A stretch of 36,027 nucleotides of DNA from the NCBI GenBank assembly GCA_031286285.1, contig JAITUN010000224.1, forward strand, positions 1-36,027. The letters run 5' to 3'. The notes under the pieces are model-generated. The model ran no database searches and was not told the DNA's origin. It was given only the letters and a program-made list of their open reading frames with translations. The stretch is from Bacteroidales bacterium. Its GTDB lineage: Bacteria; Bacteroidota; Bacteroidia; Bacteroidales; WCHB1-69. The first letter of the stretch is position 1, and each line of letters starts with the position of its first letter. Below are positions 15,227-32,876 of the stretch, in pieces. The translations under genes and the position numbers were made by a program.

Positions 15227-15234
15227 TATTTTTG
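15227..15234 (+). promoter_or_regulatory. -7 promoter element of the TolC operon
   Basis: TATTTTTG fits TAnnTTTG and lies 23 bases before the ATG at 15258. No clear -33 TTG is seen at the usual distance. Confidence 0.55.
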
Positions 15235-15257: not shown

Positions 15258-16508
15258 ATGAAAAAACAAATTACGCTCCTCTTTTTTTTGTTCCCATTGT
15301 TTATTTTTTCTCAAACCATTGTTACTTTGGAGCAATGCCAACAATGGGCAATTTGCCGCTCTTCTGCCAACGTGCAAAAGGAATTAAACACCCAGCTGCT
15401 TAAAGTAAAGTTAGATGATGCTGCTTCTCACATGTTTCCTACGTTGGAAATTAACGGAAATATCAGCTATCAATCACATGTTCCGCAATTACCTTTAGAA
15501 TTGGGTGTGGATAAACTTTCGAAAGACCATTACGGCGTTTTCTTAGAACTTCAACAAGTAATCTATGCAGGTTCAAAACTTCGTTATGGGAGACAGTATG
15601 AACGAATGATGAATAAATCTGAGATTGATAAATTAGACCTCTCTATTAATGAACTTAAAGAGAATATTATTTCTATATATTTGAATTTATTGATTTTAGA
15701 CAAACAGGTCTCGTTGCTTTCTAGTGTAGAAAATACAATTGATGAACAATTGGCTCAACTTAAAAAACTGTTGGAAAGCGGTGTCGTATATGGAAATACT
15801 GTGGCTCAACTAGAATTGGAAGCGCTTAAAATTGAGCAACAAAAAGGAGAATTAGCATCTACCAAAGAATCTCTAATTTCCTCATTGTCAATTATAACTG
15901 GAAAGGATTTGCGAAATACTACTTTTGTTGTGCCTGACGACCCTTATATCCAAAAAAATACATCTTCTTCACGATTAGAGTTTTCCATATTCGAATATAG
16001 CAAAAAAGGATTGGATTATCAACGAAAATTCTATTTATCTAATAGCTTACCCAATTTTACTTTTTTTGCTTCCGGCGGATATGGAAGACCAACTTACAAT
16101 TTCTTTTCAAATAAATTGGCATGGAGTTATATTGTAGGGATTAAGTTTAACATTCCGGTTATTGCATGGATAAAAACAGTAGGAATTGGCAGTATAATAA
16201 CCTTGCAGAAGAAAATCTTAGAAAGCCAGGAGCGCGACTTTGAAAAATCAAATCAAATTGAGATTCAAGAAAAATGGAACGAAATCCAGAAAATTGAAAA
16301 CTTAATCGTTTTAGATAATCAAATTACAGAGAAATATAAAATTATTACAGAAACATCTAAGGTGCAGCTTCTCTATGGAACTATTACAGCGTATGATTTT
16401 ATTAAACAACAAAATGACGAATTACAATCGCTTATAAATCAAGAAGTACACTTAATGCAATTATTGAAAGCTAAATTCGAGTTTATGGCGTTGAAAGGAG
16501 AACTGTGA
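15258..16508 (+). CDS. TolC-family outer-membrane efflux/secretion channel
   Basis: This 416-residue protein is a TolC-like trimeric outer-membrane channel. The ATG at 15258 (after an in-frame TTG at 15252) gives a signal peptide MKKQITLLFFLFPLFIFSQ. Two related halves follow, each with strand segments and long coiled helices. The first half has TLEQCQQWA, FLELQQVIYAGSKLRYG and a helix through ESGVVYGNTVAQLELEALKIEQQKG, split around Val-Tyr. The second has PNFTFFASGGYGRP, WSYIVGIKFNIPV and a terminal helix with YGTITAYDFIKQQNDE. That order is diagnostic of the outer membrane efflux family. No membrane-fusion protein or ABC/RND pump is adjacent. Instead its TGA overlaps the ATG of a 1205-residue exported protein (TGATG), implying translational coupling and a shared process. 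Confidence 0.88.
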   Translation: MKKQITLLFFLFPLFIFSQTIVTLEQCQQWAICRSSANVQKELNTQLLKVKLDDAASHMFPTLEINGNISYQSHVPQLPLELGVDKLSKDHYGVFLELQQVIYAGSKLRYGRQYERMMNKSEIDKLDLSINELKENIISIYLNLLILDKQVSLLSSVENTIDEQLAQLKKLLESGVVYGNTVAQLELEALKIEQQKGELASTKESLISSLSIITGKDLRNTTFVVPDDPYIQKNTSSSRLEFSIFEYSKKGLDYQRKFYLSNSLPNFTFFASGGYGRPTYNFFSNKLAWSYIVGIKFNIPVIAWIKTVGIGSIITLQKKILESQERDFEKSNQIEIQEKWNEIQKIENLIVLDNQITEKYKIITETSKVQLLYGTITAYDFIKQQNDELQSLINQEVHLMQLLKAKFEFMALKGEL

Positions 16509-19500
16509 TGATACGCTTCGCTGTTTTTTTATCTTTATTTTTTTTTGTCCTAAGAATAAATGCACAACAGAATTATCCCAATGTGCAGTATAATGAGGAA
16601 CTCAAGCAACTTACAATTTTTGTTGACAGAAAACCGGCTATTAAAATAGTGGCTGAAGTGTTTGCTTTTCATCCGGAGTTAGTGGTAGCTCAAGATGCCA
16701 TAACAACCATCTATTTGGATTCCGATTCCATCTACCATCCTTGCACCGATATTAATTATAATCCCACGACTACCGAATTGTGGATTACAAAAAAAACAAC
16801 CGGTTTGGGAAGAGCGCCCTATTTTGACTCCTATCATAAGTTGGAAATAGTAGCCGACGCAATTTATGGAAAAATGAATACCCCATTGCTTGAGTTTCGA
16901 AAAACATTGCCCCAAAACTTAGATAAGCCTGCTTTCTTTCAATCACAAGATTTTTTTGATGCCGAAATTATGAAATCTAATAAGGGCTATAATGATAAAA
17001 ACCCTATGCTGCAACTCTGGGAACTGTTTAAAGCAAATAGTTTTCAACCTATTTCATTACGTCATGTAGTCAATTCGTTTCGTAGAGCTCAATCGGATAT
17101 TAATTCACTGTTGATTGAGTATGCCGTTCAAGGATTTATTGATTATGACCTCCAAAATGATGTGATCTACTATAAAAAAAAATTAACTGATTATTTGAAT
17201 AATGAATCTAAAAGAAGAGACTACGATAATCTCTTTTGGAAATCTAAATCACACAGAGCTACTCTTAATTTAGAAAATTTTGACTTAATTATCTATGATT
17301 GTGATTTTTTTGTGCTTAGTAATACCCATATTGTAAATGTTTATCCTGTTAATGAAACGGTAACAGTGAAGAAAAATAGAGATTTACATTTTTCCGGTCG
17401 TGTTATCGGAGGATTATTTGACTTTGTTGCAAAAGATTGTAGTTTTGATTATGATAAGTTTATGATTACTATGCCTCAAATTGATACTATGATTATGTTT
17501 TCGGAGGATAAATCGAAACCTAAAGATATTTATGGCGAATATCCATTGAAAAAGGTGAAAAATGTGGTGGAAGAGATTTCGGGAACTCTGTTTATTGACG
17601 CTCCTAATAATAAAAGTAGCAACAAAACTATTTCCGATTATCCTATTTTTGAAAGCCGTGAAGGTGGTAAAGTATATTTCGACCAGCCATTTATCTTAAA
17701 TGCAGAGTATAAAAGAGATACTTTCTATTTTATGATTGATTATTTTGTAATCAAAAATTTAGACAACTTTAATATTGATTCTACTAAAATTCCCGGAAGG
17801 TTGGTGTCAGGGAATATTTTTCCTGATATTTATGAGCCTCTCAAACTGCAACCCGATAACTCGCTCGGATTTATTCATTACACTGATTCAAAAGGCGTAC
17901 CATTATTTGATGGACAAGCCCATTTCTATAACACTATTGAATTGTCGAACAATGGATTACGAGGAAAAGGAAAAATTGAATATCTAACTTCAACTGTTGA
18001 AAGCGATAGTTTGGTTTTTTATCTGCAATCTGTTCGGGGTAAAGCAAATAGCTTCCAACTGAAACCGATGTTAGCGGATGTTGAATATCCTGAAGCTGCT
18101 ACCAAACAAGCACGCATGTTTTTTGATTCTAAGAAAAATGAAATGCAGATCACTTCAATAAAAACACCATTTGATGTTTTTGATGAAAGTTCTTTTGATG
18201 GGACATTAACATTGTCGCCAAAAGCATTGACAGGCAATGGAATCCTGAATTTTAAACGTGCTGAATTGCAATCTAAGTTAATGACGCTCAAAAACCATGC
18301 CCTTGAAGCTGAGCATGCTGATCTACGTATTTTTGAAAACGAAAATGAGAAAAAATATGCTTTTATAACAAATAGTTTTTTAGCTCAAATTGATTTTCTA
18401 AAACGTACGGGAGTATTTACGGCTGCTAATCAGGAAAATGCAGAAGTGCGTTTTGTGAGCAATGGCTTTAAAGCAAATGCTCAAACGTTTAACTGGAACC
18501 CCATTGATAAAACGCTGCTTCATTTTACATGGGATGAATCGATAAATGGAATCAACATTAATGCCACTCCTTCACGTGAATTAGTGAAAATGAAGAGCAA
18601 AAAGAGTCTTATTTCCACTATTGAGCAAGGAAAAAGAGGGCTTAGTTTTAATGTTCAAACATTGGACTTCGACTTCGGAAAAAACACAATTGAAGCGAAA
18701 GGTGTGCCTTTTATTCCGGTGGGAGATGCCGCCATTATTCCCCAAAATGGCAATGTGCATATTCAAGAAAATGCTGTATTTTCACCTCTTAATAATGCCA
18801 GAATATTAGCTGCACGAGATAATATGTACCACGAACTCTATAATTGCTCGGTACAGATTGAAAATGGCGATGATTTTAAAGGGAGCGGCTACTACGATTA
18901 TATTGATGCCTTTAATACAACCCAAACGCTTCGCTTTGACACAATTTGGTATTTCAGAGCCACCAAAGGAACTGCCTTCATCCCACCCGAGAACGATTTT
19001 ACTTTAAGTCCTCATTTTGGATTTAGCGGAAATGTAGAACTAAACAGCAACCAAGAGTTTCTTACTTTTTCCGGAGGTGTTTCTATGATTCACAATTGTG
19101 ATTTTAATACACCGGATGCACTGAGAATTAACCAACAAATTGACCCAAAACATATTCTAATTGAAATAAACAACAGGTCTCGTGATGTGAATGACCGAAG
19201 AGCAACTGTTGCCATTGCTTCATCAAACGAAACAGGTAGAATATACACTTCTATGGGAAGTGCTAAAGACCAAGTAAACGATTCTGAATATATAACTTCA
19301 TTGGGATTTATTACGTATAATTATGAAAAACAGGCTTTTCAATCTGCTTCGTTAGAAAAATTGAATAATCCGGCGCTCCCAGGAAATATCATCTCTTTGT
19401 TCAATAAAGAGTGTATTTCAACAGGGGAAGGCGCTATTGACATGGGCGCAAAATTGGGACGTGTTGAATTTAATACCCACGGTCAAGTGGTAAACTATAT

Positions 19501-20125
19501 GCAAGCCGATTCTGCCATAATGCACCTTACAACTTCTATTAATTTCTTCTTTAACGATGAATCGATGAAAATAATGAATGAGTATTTTGCTAATGCTCAG
19601 GATCTAAAATTTGTGGATCCTAATGAAGATAAGAATTACACACAATCGTTAATCAATATTTTGGGACAGGCAGAATATGAGAAGTATGAAAAAGACAGAA
19701 AATCGGGTACACAGCAGGGAAAATTACCGGCACCACTGGATGTTAAGTTTCTATTCTCCACTTTAAATTTTGTGTGGTCGCAAGATAATGGCGCTTTTGA
19801 GTCGCAAAAAACGGTTCCTCTTGTTATTTCAAATGGAAAAAACGTGTATAAAGAGATTCCGGGAAGAATTGTTATAGAGAAGAAAGGCTCTCGAAATACT
19901 TTGTATATCTATTTTGAATTAAAAAAAGATTTTTTCTTTTTTCAGTTTGACAACAACAGTTTGTCGGTATTTTCCTCCGATGAAAAATTTAATAATGCTG
20001 TAACCAACACTAAAGCAAAAGATAAAACTTTGAGTGCGAAAGGAGGAGATGCCGCTTTTTCTTATAAAATCGGCAACCGAGGGCAAAAGACACGGTTTAC
20101 AAGGAAATATTTTCAGAATGATTGA
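16508..20125 (+). CDS. Giant exported beta-rich protein of unknown function, coupled to TolC homologue
   Basis: This protein has 1205 residues from ATG 16508; the frame also has a GTG at 16505, but the ATG overlapping the tolC stop is preferred. It begins with a signal peptide (MIRFAVFLSLFFFVLRINA, then QQNYPN). A short beta domain follows, then a charged helical section at about residues 165-245 that looks winged-helix-like. About 900 residues of repeated beta strands come next, with recurring patterns such as SGRVIGGLFDF, GQAHFYNTIELSNNGLRGKG, FDGTLTLSPKALTGNG and GSGYYDYIDAFN. There are no catalytic motifs, no lipobox, no T9SS domain and no terminal barrel signature. The periodic strands recall extended beta-sheet lipid carriers of the AsmA/LPS-transport kind, but this is only an impression. 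I do not recognise the family. Confidence 0.85.
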   Translation: MIRFAVFLSLFFFVLRINAQQNYPNVQYNEELKQLTIFVDRKPAIKIVAEVFAFHPELVVAQDAITTIYLDSDSIYHPCTDINYNPTTTELWITKKTTGLGRAPYFDSYHKLEIVADAIYGKMNTPLLEFRKTLPQNLDKPAFFQSQDFFDAEIMKSNKGYNDKNPMLQLWELFKANSFQPISLRHVVNSFRRAQSDINSLLIEYAVQGFIDYDLQNDVIYYKKKLTDYLNNESKRRDYDNLFWKSKSHRATLNLENFDLIIYDCDFFVLSNTHIVNVYPVNETVTVKKNRDLHFSGRVIGGLFDFVAKDCSFDYDKFMITMPQIDTMIMFSEDKSKPKDIYGEYPLKKVKNVVEEISGTLFIDAPNNKSSNKTISDYPIFESREGGKVYFDQPFILNAEYKRDTFYFMIDYFVIKNLDNFNIDSTKIPGRLVSGNIFPDIYEPLKLQPDNSLGFIHYTDSKGVPLFDGQAHFYNTIELSNNGLRGKGKIEYLTSTVESDSLVFYLQSVRGKANSFQLKPMLADVEYPEAATKQARMFFDSKKNEMQITSIKTPFDVFDESSFDGTLTLSPKALTGNGILNFKRAELQSKLMTLKNHALEAEHADLRIFENENEKKYAFITNSFLAQIDFLKRTGVFTAANQENAEVRFVSNGFKANAQTFNWNPIDKTLLHFTWDESINGININATPSRELVKMKSKKSLISTIEQGKRGLSFNVQTLDFDFGKNTIEAKGVPFIPVGDAAIIPQNGNVHIQENAVFSPLNNARILAARDNMYHELYNCSVQIENGDDFKGSGYYDYIDAFNTTQTLRFDTIWYFRATKGTAFIPPENDFTLSPHFGFSGNVELNSNQEFLTFSGGVSMIHNCDFNTPDALRINQQIDPKHILIEINNRSRDVNDRRATVAIASSNETGRIYTSMGSAKDQVNDSEYITSLGFITYNYEKQAFQSASLEKLNNPALPGNIISLFNKECISTGEGAIDMGAKLGRVEFNTHGQVVNYMQADSAIMHLTTSINFFFNDESMKIMNEYFANAQDLKFVDPNEDKNYTQSLINILGQAEYEKYEKDRKSGTQQGKLPAPLDVKFLFSTLNFVWSQDNGAFESQKTVPLVISNGKNVYKEIPGRIVIEKKGSRNTLYIYFELKKDFFFFQFDNNSLSVFSSDEKFNNAVTNTKAKDKTLSAKGGDAAFSYKIGNRGQKTRFTRKYFQND

Positions 20126-20807: not shown

Positions 20808-22157
20808 TTATTTTTTAAGATTGTGTTTTTTTACAAATTCATCAAGAACCTCTTCTAAGGTCGGTTTTCCAATCTCTTGCAATTCATAACCCACTTTTAC
20901 CACAGGTTGTTTGATTTTGCAGAAGCGCGGAAGATCAATCGGAGTTCCAATCACAACAGCATCGCAAGGGGTATTGGCGATAGATTTTTCCAAGTCGTTC
21001 ATTTGAGCTTCGCCGTATCCCATAGCAGGCAGTAACGCGCCGATTCCGGGGTAAGTAGCGAAAGTTTCTTTTAATGAACCCACGATGTAAGGTCTTGGGT
21101 CAATCATTTCGGCGGCTCCGTATTTCATGGCAGCTACCGTACCGGCGCCAATCTTCATTTCACCATGCGTTAAAGTAGGCCCATCTTCCACCACCAATAC
21201 TTTCTTTCCTTTTATTAGCTCAGGTTTATCCACCGTTAAAATAGAAGCGGCATCAATAATTGTAGCTTTTGGGTTGATTCTTGCTAAGTTAACTCTAACT
21301 TGGTTGATATTTTCTAAAGAAGCGGAGTCAATTTTATTGATTACGATAACGTCAGCCATACGGGCAACTACTTCACCCGGGTAGTAGCTAACTTCTGCGC
21401 CCGGGCGTAACGGGTCGGCAACTCCAATAAAGAGATCGGGAACATAGAAAGAGAAGTCGTTGTTTCCGCCATCCCAAAGAACGATGTCACAGCCATCGGG
21501 ATCTTTTTCAGCTTCACGAAGAATCGCTTCGTAATCCACACCGGCATAAATCACATTTCTTTTTGTAACCACGTGGGGTTCATATTCTTCCATTTCTTCA
21601 ATAGTACAGTTGTGTTTTTTCAAATCTTCCACACAAGCAAAGCGTTGTACTTTTTGTTTATTCAAGTCAGGGTCGTAAGGCATGGGGTGTCGAACAGCTA
21701 CTACTTTTAAGCCCATAGCTACCAAATACTCAATGATTTTGCGTGAGGTCTGCGATTTTCCGCAACCGGTACGAGTAGCGCCTACAGCAATAACCGGTTT
21801 TGTTGACTTAATCATGGTTTCTTTGGGTCCCATTAAAACGAAATTAGCGCCTGCAGCATTCACAATAGCGCTGATGCTCATTACATAGTTGTAGGGTTTG
21901 TCGCTGTATGCAAAAACGCATTCATCTACATTAAATTTTTTGATTAATTGAGGAAGCTCAGATTCCTTATAGATTGGAATCCCGTTTGGGTATAGATCTG
22001 TCCCCGCTAATTCTTTAGGGTAAGGTCTTCCGTCAATTCCGGGGATCTGTTCTGCGGTAAATGCTACCACATTGTAATTTGGGTTGTGGCGAAAATAGGT
22101 GTTGAAGTTGTGAAAGTCTCGCCCTGCCGCGCCAATGATAATGACATTTTTTTTCAT
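20808..22157 (-). CDS. Cyclic 2,3-diphosphoglycerate synthetase-like P-loop protein
   Basis: From ATG 22157 the protein has 449 residues; the longer frame to 22205 only adds AT-rich leader. The N-terminal part is Rossmann-like (NVIIIGAAGRDFHNF), followed by a P-loop VGATRTGCGKSQTSRK at about residues 125-140, then VRHPMPYDPDL, LWDGGNNDFSFYVPDLFIGV, an NKID motif and EDGPTLTHGEM. This set matches the family of Methanothermus cyclic 2,3-diphosphoglycerate synthetase, which makes an intracellular stabilising solute. Bacterial members have no settled role and may do different chemistry. It is co-transcribed with an M50-type protease. Its promoter faces that of an LptC-like gene across an 18-base inverted repeat. 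Confidence 0.85.
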   Translation of the reverse strand: MKKNVIIIGAAGRDFHNFNTYFRHNPNYNVVAFTAEQIPGIDGRPYPKELAGTDLYPNGIPIYKESELPQLIKKFNVDECVFAYSDKPYNYVMSISAIVNAAGANFVLMGPKETMIKSTKPVIAVGATRTGCGKSQTSRKIIEYLVAMGLKVVAVRHPMPYDPDLNKQKVQRFACVEDLKKHNCTIEEMEEYEPHVVTKRNVIYAGVDYEAILREAEKDPDGCDIVLWDGGNNDFSFYVPDLFIGVADPLRPGAEVSYYPGEVVARMADVIVINKIDSASLENINQVRVNLARINPKATIIDAASILTVDKPELIKGKKVLVVEDGPTLTHGEMKIGAGTVAAMKYGAAEMIDPRPYIVGSLKETFATYPGIGALLPAMGYGEAQMNDLEKSIANTPCDAVVIGTPIDLPRFCKIKQPVVKVGYELQEIGKPTLEEVLDEFVKKHNLKK

Positions 22158-22213
22158 AATGTTTTGATTTTTAAGTTTATATAAAAAAATTGAATAAATT
22201 TTCAATAGGTTTG

Positions 22214-22247: not shown

Positions 22248-22255
22248 TATTTTTG
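22248..22255 (+). promoter_or_regulatory. -7 promoter element of the LptC-like gene
   Basis: TATTTTTG matches TAnnTTTG and is the right end of the inverted repeat. Transcription would begin near 22262, so the TTG at 22253 cannot be the start codon of the following gene. Confidence 0.55.
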
Positions 22256-22270
22256 CCGAAAATTTTTCAC

Positions 22271-22828
22271 TTGAACATAAATAAGCATCTTTTTTTTCTT
22301 TTTTTCTACCTCACATTTTTTTTGTGTATCTATTCATGCAGTTCATATTCAGAAAAGGCAGAGATGATGGAATATAATGGTAAGTTTCCCGATGAATCAG
22401 GGATAAATATTGAATATTTTATGAGTGAAGACGGTGAAATTACATTTTCCTTATATGCCCCTGTGATGAATACCTATTATAGTGATAATCCTTTTACCGA
22501 TTTTCCGGAAGGCATAGTAGTTTCATCTTATACTAATGGAGAAAAACATTCCACTCTTACTGCTAATTATGCAATTAAAGAAGATTATACAGAACGTATG
22601 GAAGCTCACGGAAATGTTGTAATTGTAGATTTAGTGAAACAAGAATCTATTCTTACTGAAAAAATTATTTGGGATAAAAAAAACAAGCGTATCCATTCTG
22701 ATGTAGAAGTAACTCAAATAAAATCAGATGGAACAAGAAATATTGGCGACGGTTTTGAAGCTGATGAAAAATTTACTAAATATACTATCAAGAATCCTCG
22801 TGGTGAAATCTTAGCAGAGGAATTGTAA
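22271..22828 (+). CDS. lptC: LptC-like LPS-transport lipoprotein
   Basis: LptC passes lipopolysaccharide from the LptBFG transporter to the periplasmic bridge. From TTG 22271 the protein has 185 residues. It starts with a basic-hydrophobic signal ending in the lipobox-like LCIYSC, so it may be lipidated as in many Bacteroidota LptC proteins. The LptC fold follows: GINIEYFMSEDGEITFSLYA, FTDFPEGIVVSSY, HSTLTANYAIKED, EAHGNVVIVD, SILTEKIIWDKKNKRIHSD and a terminal KYTIKNPRGEI. No ATG is available. The frame extends to TTG 22253, but that codon is inside the promoter, so TTG 22271 or a nearby ATA is the best start. It stands alone, divergent from the GTPase/M50 operon and convergent with the AI-2E-type gene. 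Confidence 0.85.
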   Translation: MNINKHLFFLFFYLTFFLCIYSCSSYSEKAEMMEYNGKFPDESGINIEYFMSEDGEITFSLYAPVMNTYYSDNPFTDFPEGIVVSSYTNGEKHSTLTANYAIKEDYTERMEAHGNVVIVDLVKQESILTEKIIWDKKNKRIHSDVEVTQIKSDGTRNIGDGFEADEKFTKYTIKNPRGEILAEEL

Positions 22829-23970: not shown

Positions 23971-26900
23971 TTATTCGGTTTCAGTTTTTCTTTTAGTTTT
24001 TTTCTTTACTTTCCAATTTTCGGAAAACTCTTTTTTATTATTAAATTCTTGTTGAAAGGTGATGCCAATTCCTCCCCCTTGTTGAGGTCTAGTTACATCA
24101 GTATTTGATACGTCATTAAAGTAAAAAGCTCTAATTCTCCAATTTCCTTCTTCATTTAAATAATATTCAACAGAAAGATCGGCAACAAAATTATTGTTGC
24201 TTTTTTGGTGAGGATTTTCTGCATATCCAAAGTTTGTTTTTATTACTCCTCTGTCTTTATGAAATCTTACAGCAGCATTAACAGAATACTCTTTATAATT
24301 TTCCTGATTATTGATATTTACGCCAAAACTAAAATTATTGAGTTGATTAGAGATAAATGATGTAAGAATACTTGACATTAGGTCAAGGCCTGTTCCTAAA
24401 GATTGTTGAGAAACATTCATATTTGATTCGGGAGTTATAAATGTATTAAGAAAGACAAATGAAAAAAATTGACGAATTCCGTTTTGCGGATTGGCAGTAT
24501 CTAATGCTGCAAAAACAGTAAATTGTTCTTCATTGGTTAGTCTTGGAAATTCGAAAGTGAAAGAGGGATTCGGGTTCATTAAATTGCCATTCAATCCCAT
24601 ATACGCTGAAACATCTGTGCGCCCGTTTAAAGTAGGGCTTAATGAATTTAATGAAGTTGATTTTTGGTAAAGAGCGGACACATTGAGTTGCGCCGATGAG
24701 AGCGCCCCGCCAAAGGAAATAGTGCCTCCTTCAACAATAGAAAAGTCTCGTGGAAAGAAATTTTTAAGTGACATATTAAATTTTCCGCTGACAATAGCCA
24801 AGATTCCATCAAGATTCATGTTCCCAGAACTAGAATTATAAGTAAGATGCAATCTCCCAGATGTTTTGCATTTCAATATTCCATCAATAGGTTCCAACTC
24901 TAATTTCACATCAGCATCTCTTGTAACATCAAAAACGAAATCATAATTCAGTGTTGTGGATTGACTCAGCGAGGAAATATTGGTTTCAAGGATTTTGGTT
25001 GGACTATTTTTAACAAAATAGATCCCTTTTGATGATGAAACTGAACTGGCAGATGATAAAGGAAAGGTAATAGTTGAACCGGGCAATGTCTTAATATTAT
25101 GACTTGAAAAATTGAGTTGTTTGGTATTTCCTTGAATAGAAATATCACCGGATACAAACCCATTACCAAAGAAAGGAGAGTCAATGTCTTTGGTTGTATT
25201 TAATGCCAAGATTCTAGGTGTAGAAATATTTAAATCAATAGTAAAATCCTTAAATTTATTATGGTGAACATATCCTGAAAGAGTAGCTTCATTGTTAAAT
25301 TTATCTTTGAGTTGTACTTGTTTGAAGTCAATTCCTTCTCTATTGAATCGAATCTCCTGGTCAGTAATGTAATATACTGTATTTAAGGGGAGAATTCCTA
25401 ATTGAGCTTTTTTTACAATAACCTTGCCATCAAAAAAGAGTGAATCAGGTTTTATCACAAAATCCAAATCTCCGTATGCTTCCCCGGAAACAATATCACT
25501 GAAAGAAGCTAAGAAAGGAGATAAAAATCCTATTTTCAATGTGTCTATTTTAGCATGTATCAGAAACTCTTTATCTTTTGCAATTAACTTCCCTTTTAGT
25601 TCCATCATTTTATTAGGTAATTTTGAAAAATCTGATAAACTAAATTCTGAAAGATTAATATTCATATTTTTATAACTTGAAAATACCCCTCCTGAAAAGT
25701 GGGAAACCCCATCATCAAAAATGTTTGCATCTAAAAAAATATCTCCCATAAGTTCATCATTAAAGACAAAATTTTTCACAAAAGTTTTTCCTTCAACCGT
25801 AATCCGATCACTGTCTGAATTAATAGTAGCCATTAGCGACAAATCTCCTTCAAAGTTCATTTTCATCTTAGAAGTAAAGTTATTAAAAAGTGCAATATCA
25901 AAATTTTCAAATAAAATATTGCATTTTTTCTTAGATTGTTTAGATATTTCACCATTTATACTTATTTTTCCAATATCAGATGATAAAAAACAATGATCAA
26001 ACTTTAAATAATTTTTTCCAAAACTAACACTATTATTATCTTCCATAAATTGCCACATTGATTCTCGTGCAAATAGCTTTGAATTAGTTATTTTTAAAGA
26101 AATATTGTGATTAGAATCTTCATATAGAATACCATTTAATTGATTTAAGTTTTTTACTGAAAAACTCTTCGGATTATACCAAGAGGTCTGAAATTCAATT
26201 TCTTTTTTGTTAATATTGGTGCTAATATCAATATTAGTAAAAGTTAAAGGGTTATTTTTTTGGTAAATGGTTAATGAATCGCATTGAACTCTCATTTCAA
26301 AAAAATCTTTAATATTCATAGATCCATTAATATTCAAGTTGTTTATTTTTCCTAAATTTGTATAATTAATTTGAGGGAATGAAAGATTAAATAGATCATT
26401 ACTTCTGCTGTTTCCTAAATAAATTGAAATTGAAGAATTGCGTGCAATATTTAATTGAGGAAAGATTAATTCGAAAAAATTTCTTGAGTAAAAAAAATGA
26501 ATATCAAAGTTAATATAATGATCTGTGTTGATTGAAGAAATTAACTGATTGGTTTTTGCTTTATAATCAACAAAATCGGGCAAATAGTATTGTATTGCTT
26601 CAGAAATGGCAGTGATGCAATCTTTATGTTCATAATTTGTTTTAAAAGTAATGTTTACTAAATTAGTATGGATGAGGTATTGATGGAAATTCGGTTTATT
26701 GATTGCGTTAAGTCGTAGCCAGTCTACTCTAGATGATTTTTCGCCATTAGAAAGTTTTGCGTAATCAATACGTAAAAAGCCATTTAAATTGTCAATTTGA
26801 CTGCCGCTCATCTCAATGCCAATGGAATCAGTAGTGAAAACTAAATTGGGTGTTTGATTAACTTTTAATAATAATTTTTCGAAACCGGTGGCAGTAGTTG

Positions 26901-28548
26901 AGTCCATTTGAGTTGAAAAATGAGAAAAGAGTTCAGAAAGTTTGATATTAATATTTCTTAACGATGCTACAATAGATGGATTTTCATCGGCAAAATTTAG
27001 ATTTCCCCTAAATCTAAATGACGCCAAAGAATCTGTTACTTTAAGAGCTATCCCTACTTTCTTTTGCATGTAATCACCTCTAAATAGAATATCGTCTAAC
27101 TGATATCCACAAATGTCCATTCTGATAATTCTTCCTTGAACTTTTGCTGAAATTGAAGATAATATGTCTTTAATATTTCCATTATTAATTAGATTTCCCT
27201 CCAAAGAACTCTGTAAATTTACTTTATTTAAGTATTTAGGTTGAGACATAAGATTTCCCAATGCTATCTCCTTGCAGTCAATTTTGCCGGAATATGCAAT
27301 ATTATCTCCTAAAGGTTTTGTCTTGATTTCAATATCAGCATTTCCTATATTGGTTTGTATAGCTAAATTAGTGTTAAATTTTGTTAATGAGCCAATAAAA
27401 TATCCATTTATTTTTGAGTAGATTAACTTATCTAATATTTTTGGAATGATAATTGTTTTTCTTTCCGGCAACTTTAATTGTGAAAGCTCTGAAAAATTAA
27501 TGTTTGCATTTTTTAAGTATAGGTTAAAACTACTATTATTGAAGTCTAGTATGTTTTCAACGGCAAACTCTCCTGCAATGTGTGTATTTTGTTTGTATTT
27601 TAAGTATACATTTTTAGTTTGCAAATGATTAACAGGTCCACTAACATGACCTGAGAAAATGAATTGATTATCCATTCCTTTTAGTTTAGGAACGAAAAAA
27701 ACAATATCTTTCATTGAAATGCTTGCACTTTTCACTTTTGTATCGAAATTAATGAGGTTTACAAAGTCTGTAAAATCAGGAAAATCATTATAACGAAAAG
27801 CAAAATCACCTGAAAACATGCTGTTTGGAGTAGAAAAATGTAGCGAGTCAACCAGCAATCCTTGAGAATAAATACGGAAGTTCCCTGAAAAGTTCGAAAT
27901 TTCAAAACCAGTATATTGGGAGAGGGTTAGGGATTTGATCTTACATGAAATATCCGGTCCCCAAACTAAAAAATTTTCTACGTTAAGGTTAATTCGTTGT
28001 AACTCAAAAAATGCGTAGTCTATTGTATTGTCATCTTTGTACAATCTTTTATCATCATTAATAAAAACAAAGCGCACATTATTGAGAGAAATATTTTCAA
28101 TTAAAAGTTTAAATTTAGGCTCTTTTTTTTCTTTCTTTTTTAATCCTAAAGCCCATATTGCAATATTTACCTTACTTTCCCCTTCATATTTACGAATTAC
28201 AACTTCTCCATCATCAAGTTCTGCAAAAGTGAAACAAAGCTGCCCTTTCATTGTTTTGGCAATATTAATCTTCCCTTTAAGGGTAGTAGCAAAAATCATG
28301 TTTTCAAATTGATAATCTTTTATAGCAAAATTTTTGGCAGTGAGGGTTAGGGTAGGGGAAAGGTAAATTTTATCCACTGTAATCTCTCCGCCGGTAATAT
28401 TTGTTAGGATTTTAGAGGCTTTTAATACGAGAAACTGTTGAACAGGTGGTATTAATACAAGCGCAACAATCATCAAATCAAGTACAACCAAAGACACGAT
28501 GAGCCAAAGAATGGTTTTTAAAATTCGCCTAATTACTTTTTTTAACAT
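23971..28548 (-). CDS. tamB: TamB-like translocation and assembly module protein
   Basis: This 1525-residue protein is a giant AsmA/TamB-type protein spanning the periplasm. An N-terminal membrane helix (residues about 12-35) is followed by GEITVDKIYLSPTLTLTAKNF, the usual first AsmA-like repeat. A very long series of beta-strand repeats follows, and a C-terminal TamB (DUF490) domain occupies about residues 1080-1490, with LDGILAIVSGKFNMSLKNFF, VEGGTISFGG and AYMGLNGNLMNPNPSFTFEF. The family bridges inner and outer membranes and is implicated in phospholipid transport and outer-membrane protein assembly. In this phylum it usually acts without a closely linked TamA; none is seen here. It shares an operon with the AI-2E-type gene. 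A promoter and a 14-base palindrome lie in the 46-base gap upstream. Confidence 0.92.
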   Translation of the reverse strand: MLKKVIRRILKTILWLIVSLVVLDLMIVALVLIPPVQQFLVLKASKILTNITGGEITVDKIYLSPTLTLTAKNFAIKDYQFENMIFATTLKGKINIAKTMKGQLCFTFAELDDGEVVIRKYEGESKVNIAIWALGLKKKEKKEPKFKLLIENISLNNVRFVFINDDKRLYKDDNTIDYAFFELQRINLNVENFLVWGPDISCKIKSLTLSQYTGFEISNFSGNFRIYSQGLLVDSLHFSTPNSMFSGDFAFRYNDFPDFTDFVNLINFDTKVKSASISMKDIVFFVPKLKGMDNQFIFSGHVSGPVNHLQTKNVYLKYKQNTHIAGEFAVENILDFNNSSFNLYLKNANINFSELSQLKLPERKTIIIPKILDKLIYSKINGYFIGSLTKFNTNLAIQTNIGNADIEIKTKPLGDNIAYSGKIDCKEIALGNLMSQPKYLNKVNLQSSLEGNLINNGNIKDILSSISAKVQGRIIRMDICGYQLDDILFRGDYMQKKVGIALKVTDSLASFRFRGNLNFADENPSIVASLRNINIKLSELFSHFSTQMDSTTATGFEKLLLKVNQTPNLVFTTDSIGIEMSGSQIDNLNGFLRIDYAKLSNGEKSSRVDWLRLNAINKPNFHQYLIHTNLVNITFKTNYEHKDCITAISEAIQYYLPDFVDYKAKTNQLISSINTDHYINFDIHFFYSRNFFELIFPQLNIARNSSISIYLGNSRSNDLFNLSFPQINYTNLGKINNLNINGSMNIKDFFEMRVQCDSLTIYQKNNPLTFTNIDISTNINKKEIEFQTSWYNPKSFSVKNLNQLNGILYEDSNHNISLKITNSKLFARESMWQFMEDNNSVSFGKNYLKFDHCFLSSDIGKISINGEISKQSKKKCNILFENFDIALFNNFTSKMKMNFEGDLSLMATINSDSDRITVEGKTFVKNFVFNDELMGDIFLDANIFDDGVSHFSGGVFSSYKNMNINLSEFSLSDFSKLPNKMMELKGKLIAKDKEFLIHAKIDTLKIGFLSPFLASFSDIVSGEAYGDLDFVIKPDSLFFDGKVIVKKAQLGILPLNTVYYITDQEIRFNREGIDFKQVQLKDKFNNEATLSGYVHHNKFKDFTIDLNISTPRILALNTTKDIDSPFFGNGFVSGDISIQGNTKQLNFSSHNIKTLPGSTITFPLSSASSVSSSKGIYFVKNSPTKILETNISSLSQSTTLNYDFVFDVTRDADVKLELEPIDGILKCKTSGRLHLTYNSSSGNMNLDGILAIVSGKFNMSLKNFFPRDFSIVEGGTISFGGALSSAQLNVSALYQKSTSLNSLSPTLNGRTDVSAYMGLNGNLMNPNPSFTFEFPRLTNEEQFTVFAALDTANPQNGIRQFFSFVFLNTFITPESNMNVSQQSLGTGLDLMSSILTSFISNQLNNFSFGVNINNQENYKEYSVNAAVRFHKDRGVIKTNFGYAENPHQKSNNNFVADLSVEYYLNEEGNWRIRAFYFNDVSNTDVTRPQQGGGIGITFQQEFNNKKEFSENWKVKKKTKRKTETE

Positions 28549-31364: not shown

Positions 31365-32876
31365 TTTATGTAGCTGTATTCTCATCACTGTTCCTCGTCC
31401 TATTGTAGAAGATTTAACAAACAATTTACCTTTATGGTACTGTTTAATAATCCTTTTTGCTAAAGGCAAACCAAGTCCCCAACCTCTATTTTTTGTTGTA
31501 TAGCCAGGTTTAAAAATGAGTTTAAACTCTTTGGATGAAATTCCTTTACCTGTATCAGTAATGTCAATAAAAAAATGTTTTACTTCTTCTAATAGATCAA
31601 TAATAATCACTCCGTTTCCATCCATAGCATCTACCGAATTTTTGCATAAATTTTCGATTACCCATTCAAAAAGATATTTATTAACATGTAAATTAAAATC
31701 TCTAACGTCATTTCTATTTACTTTGATTTCTACTTTTGAGGATATTCTTGATTGTAAGTACTCTACAAAATCTTCTATAATCGAGGCAATATTTTCTGAA
31801 ACAAGTTCAGGTTCCGATCCGATTTTCGAGAATCTTTGCGCAATGGTTTCCAAGCGTTGTACATCCTTATCAATCTCTTTCATGACTGAGGGTTCAACAT
31901 CCTGTTCTTTAAGCAGTTCACTCCATGCCATGAGTGAAGAGATGGGCGTCCCCAACTGGTGTGCTGTTTCTTTCGACATTCCTACCCAAACTCGATTTTG
32001 TTCTGAGCGTCTTGCAAAACTGAAAATGAGATACCCTGCAATAGCAAAGATAAGAACAATAACAAATTGAATCATTGGATAAAAACGTAATCGCATAAGT
32101 ATCCAAGATTCTTTATATAACACATAACACGTTCCTTGATAGGGTAGATCTATCTGAATTGGTGTATTTTGACTAAGAAAATATTTTATTAATTTACTTT
32201 TATCTTCTTGTGTTTGAATCTTGTTAGGGTTGATTCTGCCGAAAGCTATAATGTCACTTTTAGTACTGTCTGTAATAATAACAGGAACTGCGGCATCATT
32301 TATAACAATTTCCTGAAAGTATGATTCAACCAAATTGTCAATTTCTTTTCGCAAATTGGAGTATATTTTAGATTCTTTGTAATAAATTATGTTATAATTG
32401 TCTTTGTAATAGTATAGTTTTAAGCTATCAAATTCAGATTTTTTATCTCCAAGTTCATTAATATTCTTTAAATTCAAGATTTCACCTTCCATATTTATGG
32501 TGTAGTTAATATTTCCATTTTCGTCTGTAAGTATTGAAGGTATTGTAGAGTTTGAAGAAATAATATCTAAATAAAAAGGAATATTATAATCATCGTTTAG
32601 AGGGGCATCCGTTACTTTTTGCATTGCTTTAGCCAATAAAGTTGCCCGTTTTCCTTCTTCATTACGAATTGTTTTGAAAAATGTTTCCATGTGAGAAACC
32701 AAGTCAGCTTTATAAGTAATAGCATCTGCCCAAACACCTACTTTTCTTCTTTCCTCTTTTCTAATATTACTAATTAGAAAATTAGAATATAATATCATAG
32801 CAATAAGAACTACCGATGCTAGCAAAAAAAGAGTCCAATTCCATCTTTTGTTACTTCCTATTTTCATTTTTTTCAT
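31362..32876 (-). CDS. Orphan membrane sensor histidine kinase
   Basis: This is a 504-residue inner-membrane kinase. Transmembrane helix 1 is at residues 15-36, a periplasmic sensor of about 225 residues spans 37-262, and helix 2 is at 266-287. The cytoplasmic part has the H-box SKETAHQLGTPISSL with phosphate-accepting His306, an N-box ENLCKNSVDAM, the G1 motif DTGKGIS, an F-box FKPGYTTK and G2 GWGLGLPLAKRI. There is no HAMP, PAS or receiver domain, and no response regulator gene nearby, so the partner is encoded elsewhere. The periplasmic domain matches no family I recognise. The start ATG 32876 overlaps the upstream propeller gene by 26 bases (ATG 32867 would also do), so the two proteins are likely made together and may work together. 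Confidence 0.92.
   Translation of the reverse strand: MKKMKIGSNKRWNWTLFLLASVVLIAMILYSNFLISNIRKEERRKVGVWADAITYKADLVSHMETFFKTIRNEEGKRATLLAKAMQKVTDAPLNDDYNIPFYLDIISSNSTIPSILTDENGNINYTINMEGEILNLKNINELGDKKSEFDSLKLYYYKDNYNIIYYKESKIYSNLRKEIDNLVESYFQEIVINDAAVPVIITDSTKSDIIAFGRINPNKIQTQEDKSKLIKYFLSQNTPIQIDLPYQGTCYVLYKESWILMRLRFYPMIQFVIVLIFAIAGYLIFSFARRSEQNRVWVGMSKETAHQLGTPISSLMAWSELLKEQDVEPSVMKEIDKDVQRLETIAQRFSKIGSEPELVSENIASIIEDFVEYLQSRISSKVEIKVNRNDVRDFNLHVNKYLFEWVIENLCKNSVDAMDGNGVIIIDLLEEVKHFFIDITDTGKGISSKEFKLIFKPGYTTKNRGWGLGLPLAKRIIKQYHKGKLFVKSSTIGRGTVMRIQLHK

Follow-up and report, generated by a model that had tools for sequence, protein, structure and literature searches.

The Negativicutes carry an mlaEFD-tolC-tamB operon (PMC10665443), and AsmA-like proteins are known to matter for the envelope of the Bacteroidota (PMC12045153). 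Here we describe a locus of a Bacteroidales bacterium from a termite-gut genus, which lies in a window of 36,027 nucleotides (the whole of the stretch analysed; contig JAITUN010000224.1 of assembly GCA_031286285.1). In this locus a TolC-family gene (15258-16508, + strand; 416 residues from its ATG, with a signal peptide) is followed directly by a gene for an exported protein of 1205 residues (16508-20125, + strand; counted from its ATG), hereafter the giant. The giant is the short form of a family of about 1500 residues that is widespread in the Bacteroidales, and two of its modules are predicted to share the fold of lipopolysaccharide-transport (Lpt) proteins. Its pairing with TolC is a feature of one genus.

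In predicted fold the giant comes close to LptA, LptC and the N-terminal domain of LptD. Its predicted jellyrolls superpose on nearly the whole of the LptA and LptC domains (118-139 residues, 2.9-3.6 A), and it is likewise an exported envelope protein. It differs from them in having no sequence profile match, in its length (1205-1500 residues) and in the insertion of a winged helix; moreover, it is soluble, with a signal peptide and no membrane anchor or recognised barrel, and it coexists with ordinary Lpt parts. With the TamB/AsmA-like proteins and the eukaryotic lipid bridges of the repeating-beta-groove type, it shares great length, a beta-rich composition and export; Foldseek also links it weakly to ApoB100 and a viral chorein-domain protein. 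However, it matches none of the TamB, AsmA and DUF748 profiles, it has a signal peptide ending in Ala-Gln (read by eye) instead of an inner-membrane anchor helix, and the window encodes a separate, true TamB. As in the operon of the Negativicutes, a TolC-family gene adjoins one for a long beta-groove protein in an envelope gene cluster, the groove being predicted in our case, and that operon is a precedent for the juxtaposition of two such genes. Nevertheless, the pair described here occurs in one genus only, has no Mla genes and includes a protein that is not recognisably TamB. Finally, the TolC of the window belongs by profile to the same Outer membrane efflux protein family as the TolC of tripartite pumps but, in this genus and in its sister genera, has no adjoining adaptor or pump gene.

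Results

Searches of Pfam, NCBIfam and the PDB sequences returned no match to the giant, and its sequence profile likewise found none among the PDB sequences. It was not found in the viral contigs or phage records searched, and literature searches yielded no description of the family. A preliminary description of the locus, made from the sequence alone, had called the giant a protein of no recognised family, and these empty searches bear this out. Homologues are present in 34 of 40 related genomes (29 of 33 genera). Across the order, the family profile matches 203 of 295 Bacteroidales genomes, drawn evenly and at least 90% complete (128 of 178 genera), mostly as a single copy of about 1500 residues; among 295 other genomes sampled from the whole phylum it matches 10. 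The neighbours of the long form, as identified by eye, are housekeeping genes (ribosomal protein L11 methyltransferase upstream; DAHP synthase and a C-terminal processing protease downstream) and are uninformative on function.

The sequence indicates that the giant is secreted via the Sec route. A signal peptide of the Sec type, as the preliminary description had noted, can be read by eye in residues 1-19 (16508-16564, + strand; MIRFAVFLSLFFFVLRINA, then QQ), and the Ala before Q that closes its hydrophobic stretch is kept in most relatives. When the giant of the window is aligned with its relatives, the signal peptide is kept and is followed by a gap of about 280-300 residues. The length of the protein is mostly 1450-1560 residues in the 76 loci without a linked TolC and about 1205 in the window's genus. 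In the long form, the region concerned has, by eye, a helical start followed by strand-like repeats; it was detected in none of the six genomes of the window's genus, against 12 of 14 control genomes from outside it. Survival of this region as a separate gene was rejected, as none was found in the six genus genomes, with the 12 positives from other genera serving as controls. To judge from these comparisons, the window's genus has lost some 280-300 N-terminal residues of the giant.

In its predicted structure, the giant contains two modules with the beta-jellyroll fold of the Lpt/OstA type. The AlphaFold2 model (residues 20-1205, 60 aligned sequences) has a mean predicted local distance difference test score (pLDDT) of 88.7 and a predicted template modelling score (pTM) of 0.48, so the local structure is reliable while the arrangement of distant parts is not. 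DSSP assigns 49% of the model to strand and 12% to helix; the short helical section mentioned in the preliminary description corresponds to a winged-helix domain, and the repeated beta strands to the rest of the protein, about half of which is strand. Module 1 (16622-17317, + strand; residues 39-270) is interrupted by this winged helix (16955-17215, + strand; residues 150-236), for which VIA gave Z 8-9 to winged helices of the MarR/ArsR type. The same comparison matched module 1 to LptA (2r1a_G; Z 9.4, 118 of 135 residues, 2.9 A) and LptC (4b54_B; Z 9.1, 117 of 125 residues, 2.9 A), and the second module (18080-18739, + strand; residues 525-744) to LptC twice (6mit_C with Z 11.0, 139 residues, 3.6 A; 3my2 with Z 9.9, 121 of 126 residues, 3.4 A). 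Matches to LptD reached Z 11.2, and the best unrelated beta protein was junctophilin at Z 6.8. The top PDB matches in Foldseek were LptD, LptDE complexes and ApoB100, and a chorein-domain protein (VPS13 type) came from a viral library; these alignments over the whole length have low TM-scores and serve only as leads.

The remaining C-terminal body (18740-20122, + strand; residues 745-1205) is predicted to be mostly antiparallel beta, with a small helical insert at about 1017-1065. Folded alone, these 461 residues gave a pLDDT of 90.5 and a pTM of 0.85. LptC matched this half with a Z of only 5.2; as it is equally beta-rich, the N-terminal match to Lpt proteins is not generic to beta proteins. 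Porin matches raised the possibility that the C-terminal half forms an outer-membrane barrel; this was rejected because they were weak (Z about 4, with large root-mean-square deviation) and the helical insert breaks the strands.

The upstream gene encodes a member of the Pfam family OEP (Outer membrane efflux protein, PF02321; E 1.1e-19, 71.4 bits against a cut-off of 22, in two stretches), and its sequence profile had no match among PDB sequences. Orthologues within the genus are 80-83% identical, and those of sister genera (54-62% identity; 55-63% over the search match) lie at other loci with changing neighbours and no pump beside them. More distant homologues in the order (21-28% identity) sit in TolC-adaptor-ABC operons, and several giant-bearing genomes have no close TolC. 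The flanks of the pair in the window encode an HflX-type GTPase (by eye), an M50B peptidase, a CobQ/CobW-like protein, LptC, an AI-2E-type permease and TamB, and these identities agree with the earlier statement that no pump or adaptor gene is adjacent. Indeed, as far as adjacent genes are concerned (unlinked partners are possible), the components of a tripartite efflux or type I secretion system were absent beside tolC in the window, in three further contexts within the genus and beside the sister-genus orthologues.

Within the genus the two genes are tightly joined. In the window the tolC stop codon and the ATG of the giant share one base (TGATG), as first described and with the coordinates and lengths correctly given, and an overlap of TGATG or TAATG is kept in all five genus genomes that hold the region, in one of which the contig ends inside the giant. 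For both genes, comparison within the genus showed synonymous divergence (dS) near saturation and low nonsynonymous divergence (dN), that is, purifying selection, so preservation of the overlap is not due to chance. A search for the Bacteroidota-type -7 promoter box (pattern TAnnTTTG) found TATTTTTG at 15227-15234 (+ strand), 31 bases 5' of the tolC ATG, a consensus match only. Boxes of the TATTTTTG type lie 27-31 bases 5' of tolC in four of five genus members (27-29 in the three others), and the same pattern is absent from the 200 bases 5' of the giant ATG in all five. A box before tolC and none before the giant fit a single promoter for both genes, in line with the preliminary description. 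Co-expression of tolC and the giant is well supported, and physical contact between their products is a possibility. The flanks of the pair differ in at least three contexts within the genus, which implies that the pair was held together through rearrangements. In one genus member (L132:9620-11655, + strand), genes for an ABC ATPase, a small protein without a Pfam match and a GntR regulator follow 3' of the pair on the same strand, with a gap of about 230 bases.

Beyond the genus the linkage disappears. Among 80 loci fetched by protein similarity, TolC adjoins the giant in four, all from the window's genus; flanks of up to 10 kb (shorter where contigs end) held no TolC match in the other 76. 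The genus with the linked pair forms one clade with full support. A conserved two-part system of TolC and the giant is not supported, and absence of the pair beyond close relatives is one of the outcomes that the preliminary description had named as refuting its proposal. The linkage is a lineage-specific operon of the termite-gut genus, and a TolC-coupled system cannot be generalised beyond it.

Both LptC (22253-22828, + strand) and TamB (23971-28548, - strand) are encoded within 9 kb of the giant, and LptC also lies 2.4 kb downstream of the pair in another genus member (G003). Between the giant and LptC is a gene for a nucleotide-binding protein of 465 residues (20808-22205, - strand) with only sub-threshold Pfam matches, to CobW and CbiA; at 94% identity in a sister species, it is very conserved and unnamed by Pfam. 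Further along, a histidine kinase (31365-32876, - strand; HATPase_c at E 1e-15, and HisKA) resembles the HamA nuclease family in residues 145-256 at a score just below the cut-off (E 4e-5, 23.9 against 25 bits); its PADLOC match is weak and covers the kinase part only. At the start of the window, a protein that carries DUF2436 and a C-terminal sorting domain of type 9 secretion (31-1683, + strand) indicates that the organism probably uses a type 9 secretion system.

Discussion

Our results suggest, with somewhat less than even confidence, that the giant works in the periplasm as a beta-groove protein, handling lipid or lipopolysaccharide-like molecules during the building of the outer membrane. 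Its linkage to TolC is lineage-specific. After secretion by the Sec route, the giant would form an extended row of beta modules, two or more of which are predicted to be of the Lpt type. The modules may form a groove for amphipathic molecules and so transport a cargo; the most likely role of the protein would be to shield such molecules (lipids, lipopolysaccharide) or pass them on, either between the membranes or at the outer membrane, and the winged helix in module 1 would most likely be a docking surface. In most Bacteroidales a giant of about 1500 residues acts without a linked TolC, whereas in the termite-gut genus the N-terminal 280-300 residues have been lost and the giant has come to lie second in an operon behind a pump-less TolC. 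As ordinary Lpt proteins occur in the genus and TamB is encoded in the window, the giant would act beside them. A role as a substitute for a missing LptD was considered and dropped, because four of the six genus genomes have LptD, and the two that lack it are the window's own incomplete assembly and one other. The notion of a periplasmic conduit in the preliminary description is strengthened by the model: two stretches have a predicted groove fold of the LptA/LptC type, a kind of result that the description had named as supportive. The system coupled to TolC is not conserved beyond the genus.

Several observations weigh against such a role. The cell already has ordinary Lpt parts, LptC, OstA-like and LptD proteins all being present in the genus. 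No Pfam match to OstA, LptC or LptD was found at E 1 for the giant of the window or at E 5 for five full-length relatives, nor did the TamB profile match the giant; hhalign against OstA, LptD, LptC and TamB gave nothing, but as the LptD-OstA positive control failed too, this comparison is uninformative. With a pTM of 0.48 for the whole, a continuous end-to-end groove is unsupported by the model. No known fold can be clearly assigned to the C-terminal half, for which the CPAP G-box (Z 6.2) and OspA (Z 5.3) are the best matches, although the absence of matches with a Z of at least 8 does not demonstrate a new fold. Strand alternation exceeds that of shuffled sequences (z 4.1), as would also be expected from a closed sandwich.

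We are evenly divided on whether the linkage to TolC has any functional meaning. Through a deletion or rearrangement in one ancestor, the shortened gene may have ended up downstream of a tolC to which it has no relation, with translation coupling keeping both in place, and this would be compatible with a lipid-handling giant. Restriction of the linkage to one genus and one clade argues for such an accident, as do the separate locations of the TolC orthologue and the giant elsewhere and the giant-bearing genomes without a close TolC. However, the pair has stayed joined through at least three changes of flank, with the overlap intact at near-saturated dS, and the linkage coincides with loss of the N-terminal region.

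It is also conceivable, though rather unlikely, that the giant serves as an extended scaffold or structural element of the envelope or the cell surface, whose beta modules are building blocks that carry no cargo. An Lpt-like fold does not require transport, and the best matches of the C-terminal half, weak as they are, are to open or extended-sheet folds and include no lipid carrier. Nevertheless, several distinct Lpt proteins head the N-terminal list, well above other beta folds, and the surface-sorting domain recognised in the product of the first gene of the window was not recognised in the giant.

We consider it doubtful that the giant replaces an adaptor and, perhaps with an unlinked pump, feeds TolC in an undescribed transport system of the genus. 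The overlapping genes with their single predicted promoter, the TolC without a pump, the predicted groove-type modules and the position of tolC next to tamB in Negativicutes are all consistent with this; the arrangement is, however, unconserved beyond the genus, and the secondary structure of the model has no long helical hairpin of the kind typical of adaptors. Equally speculative is an undescribed lipid or glycolipid bridge of the Bacteroidales, a single beta-groove protein of 1500 residues beside Lpt and TAM that in one termite-gut genus would have been truncated and joined to a TolC without a pump as its outer-membrane exit. Export of the giant as cargo through TolC, which had also been suggested and for which adjacency alone speaks, is highly improbable, as the giant has its own Sec-type signal peptide, is adjoined by no type I ABC exporter gene and is conserved in relatives in which no TolC gene adjoins it.

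The delivery of lipids to the outer membrane of the Bacteroidota is largely an open question, for which the giant family offers a testable candidate: it is found in about 70% of the order genomes sampled, is under strong selection, is unnamed in Pfam and NCBIfam and has a predicted lipopolysaccharide-transport fold. As a natural variant, the shortened form joined to TolC in the termite-gut genus reveals which part of the giant is dispensable. The giant family is of more interest than its pairing with TolC, which is confined to one genus, and it is worth investigating on its own account as a candidate for the handling of lipids or glycolipids in the envelope of the Bacteroidales.
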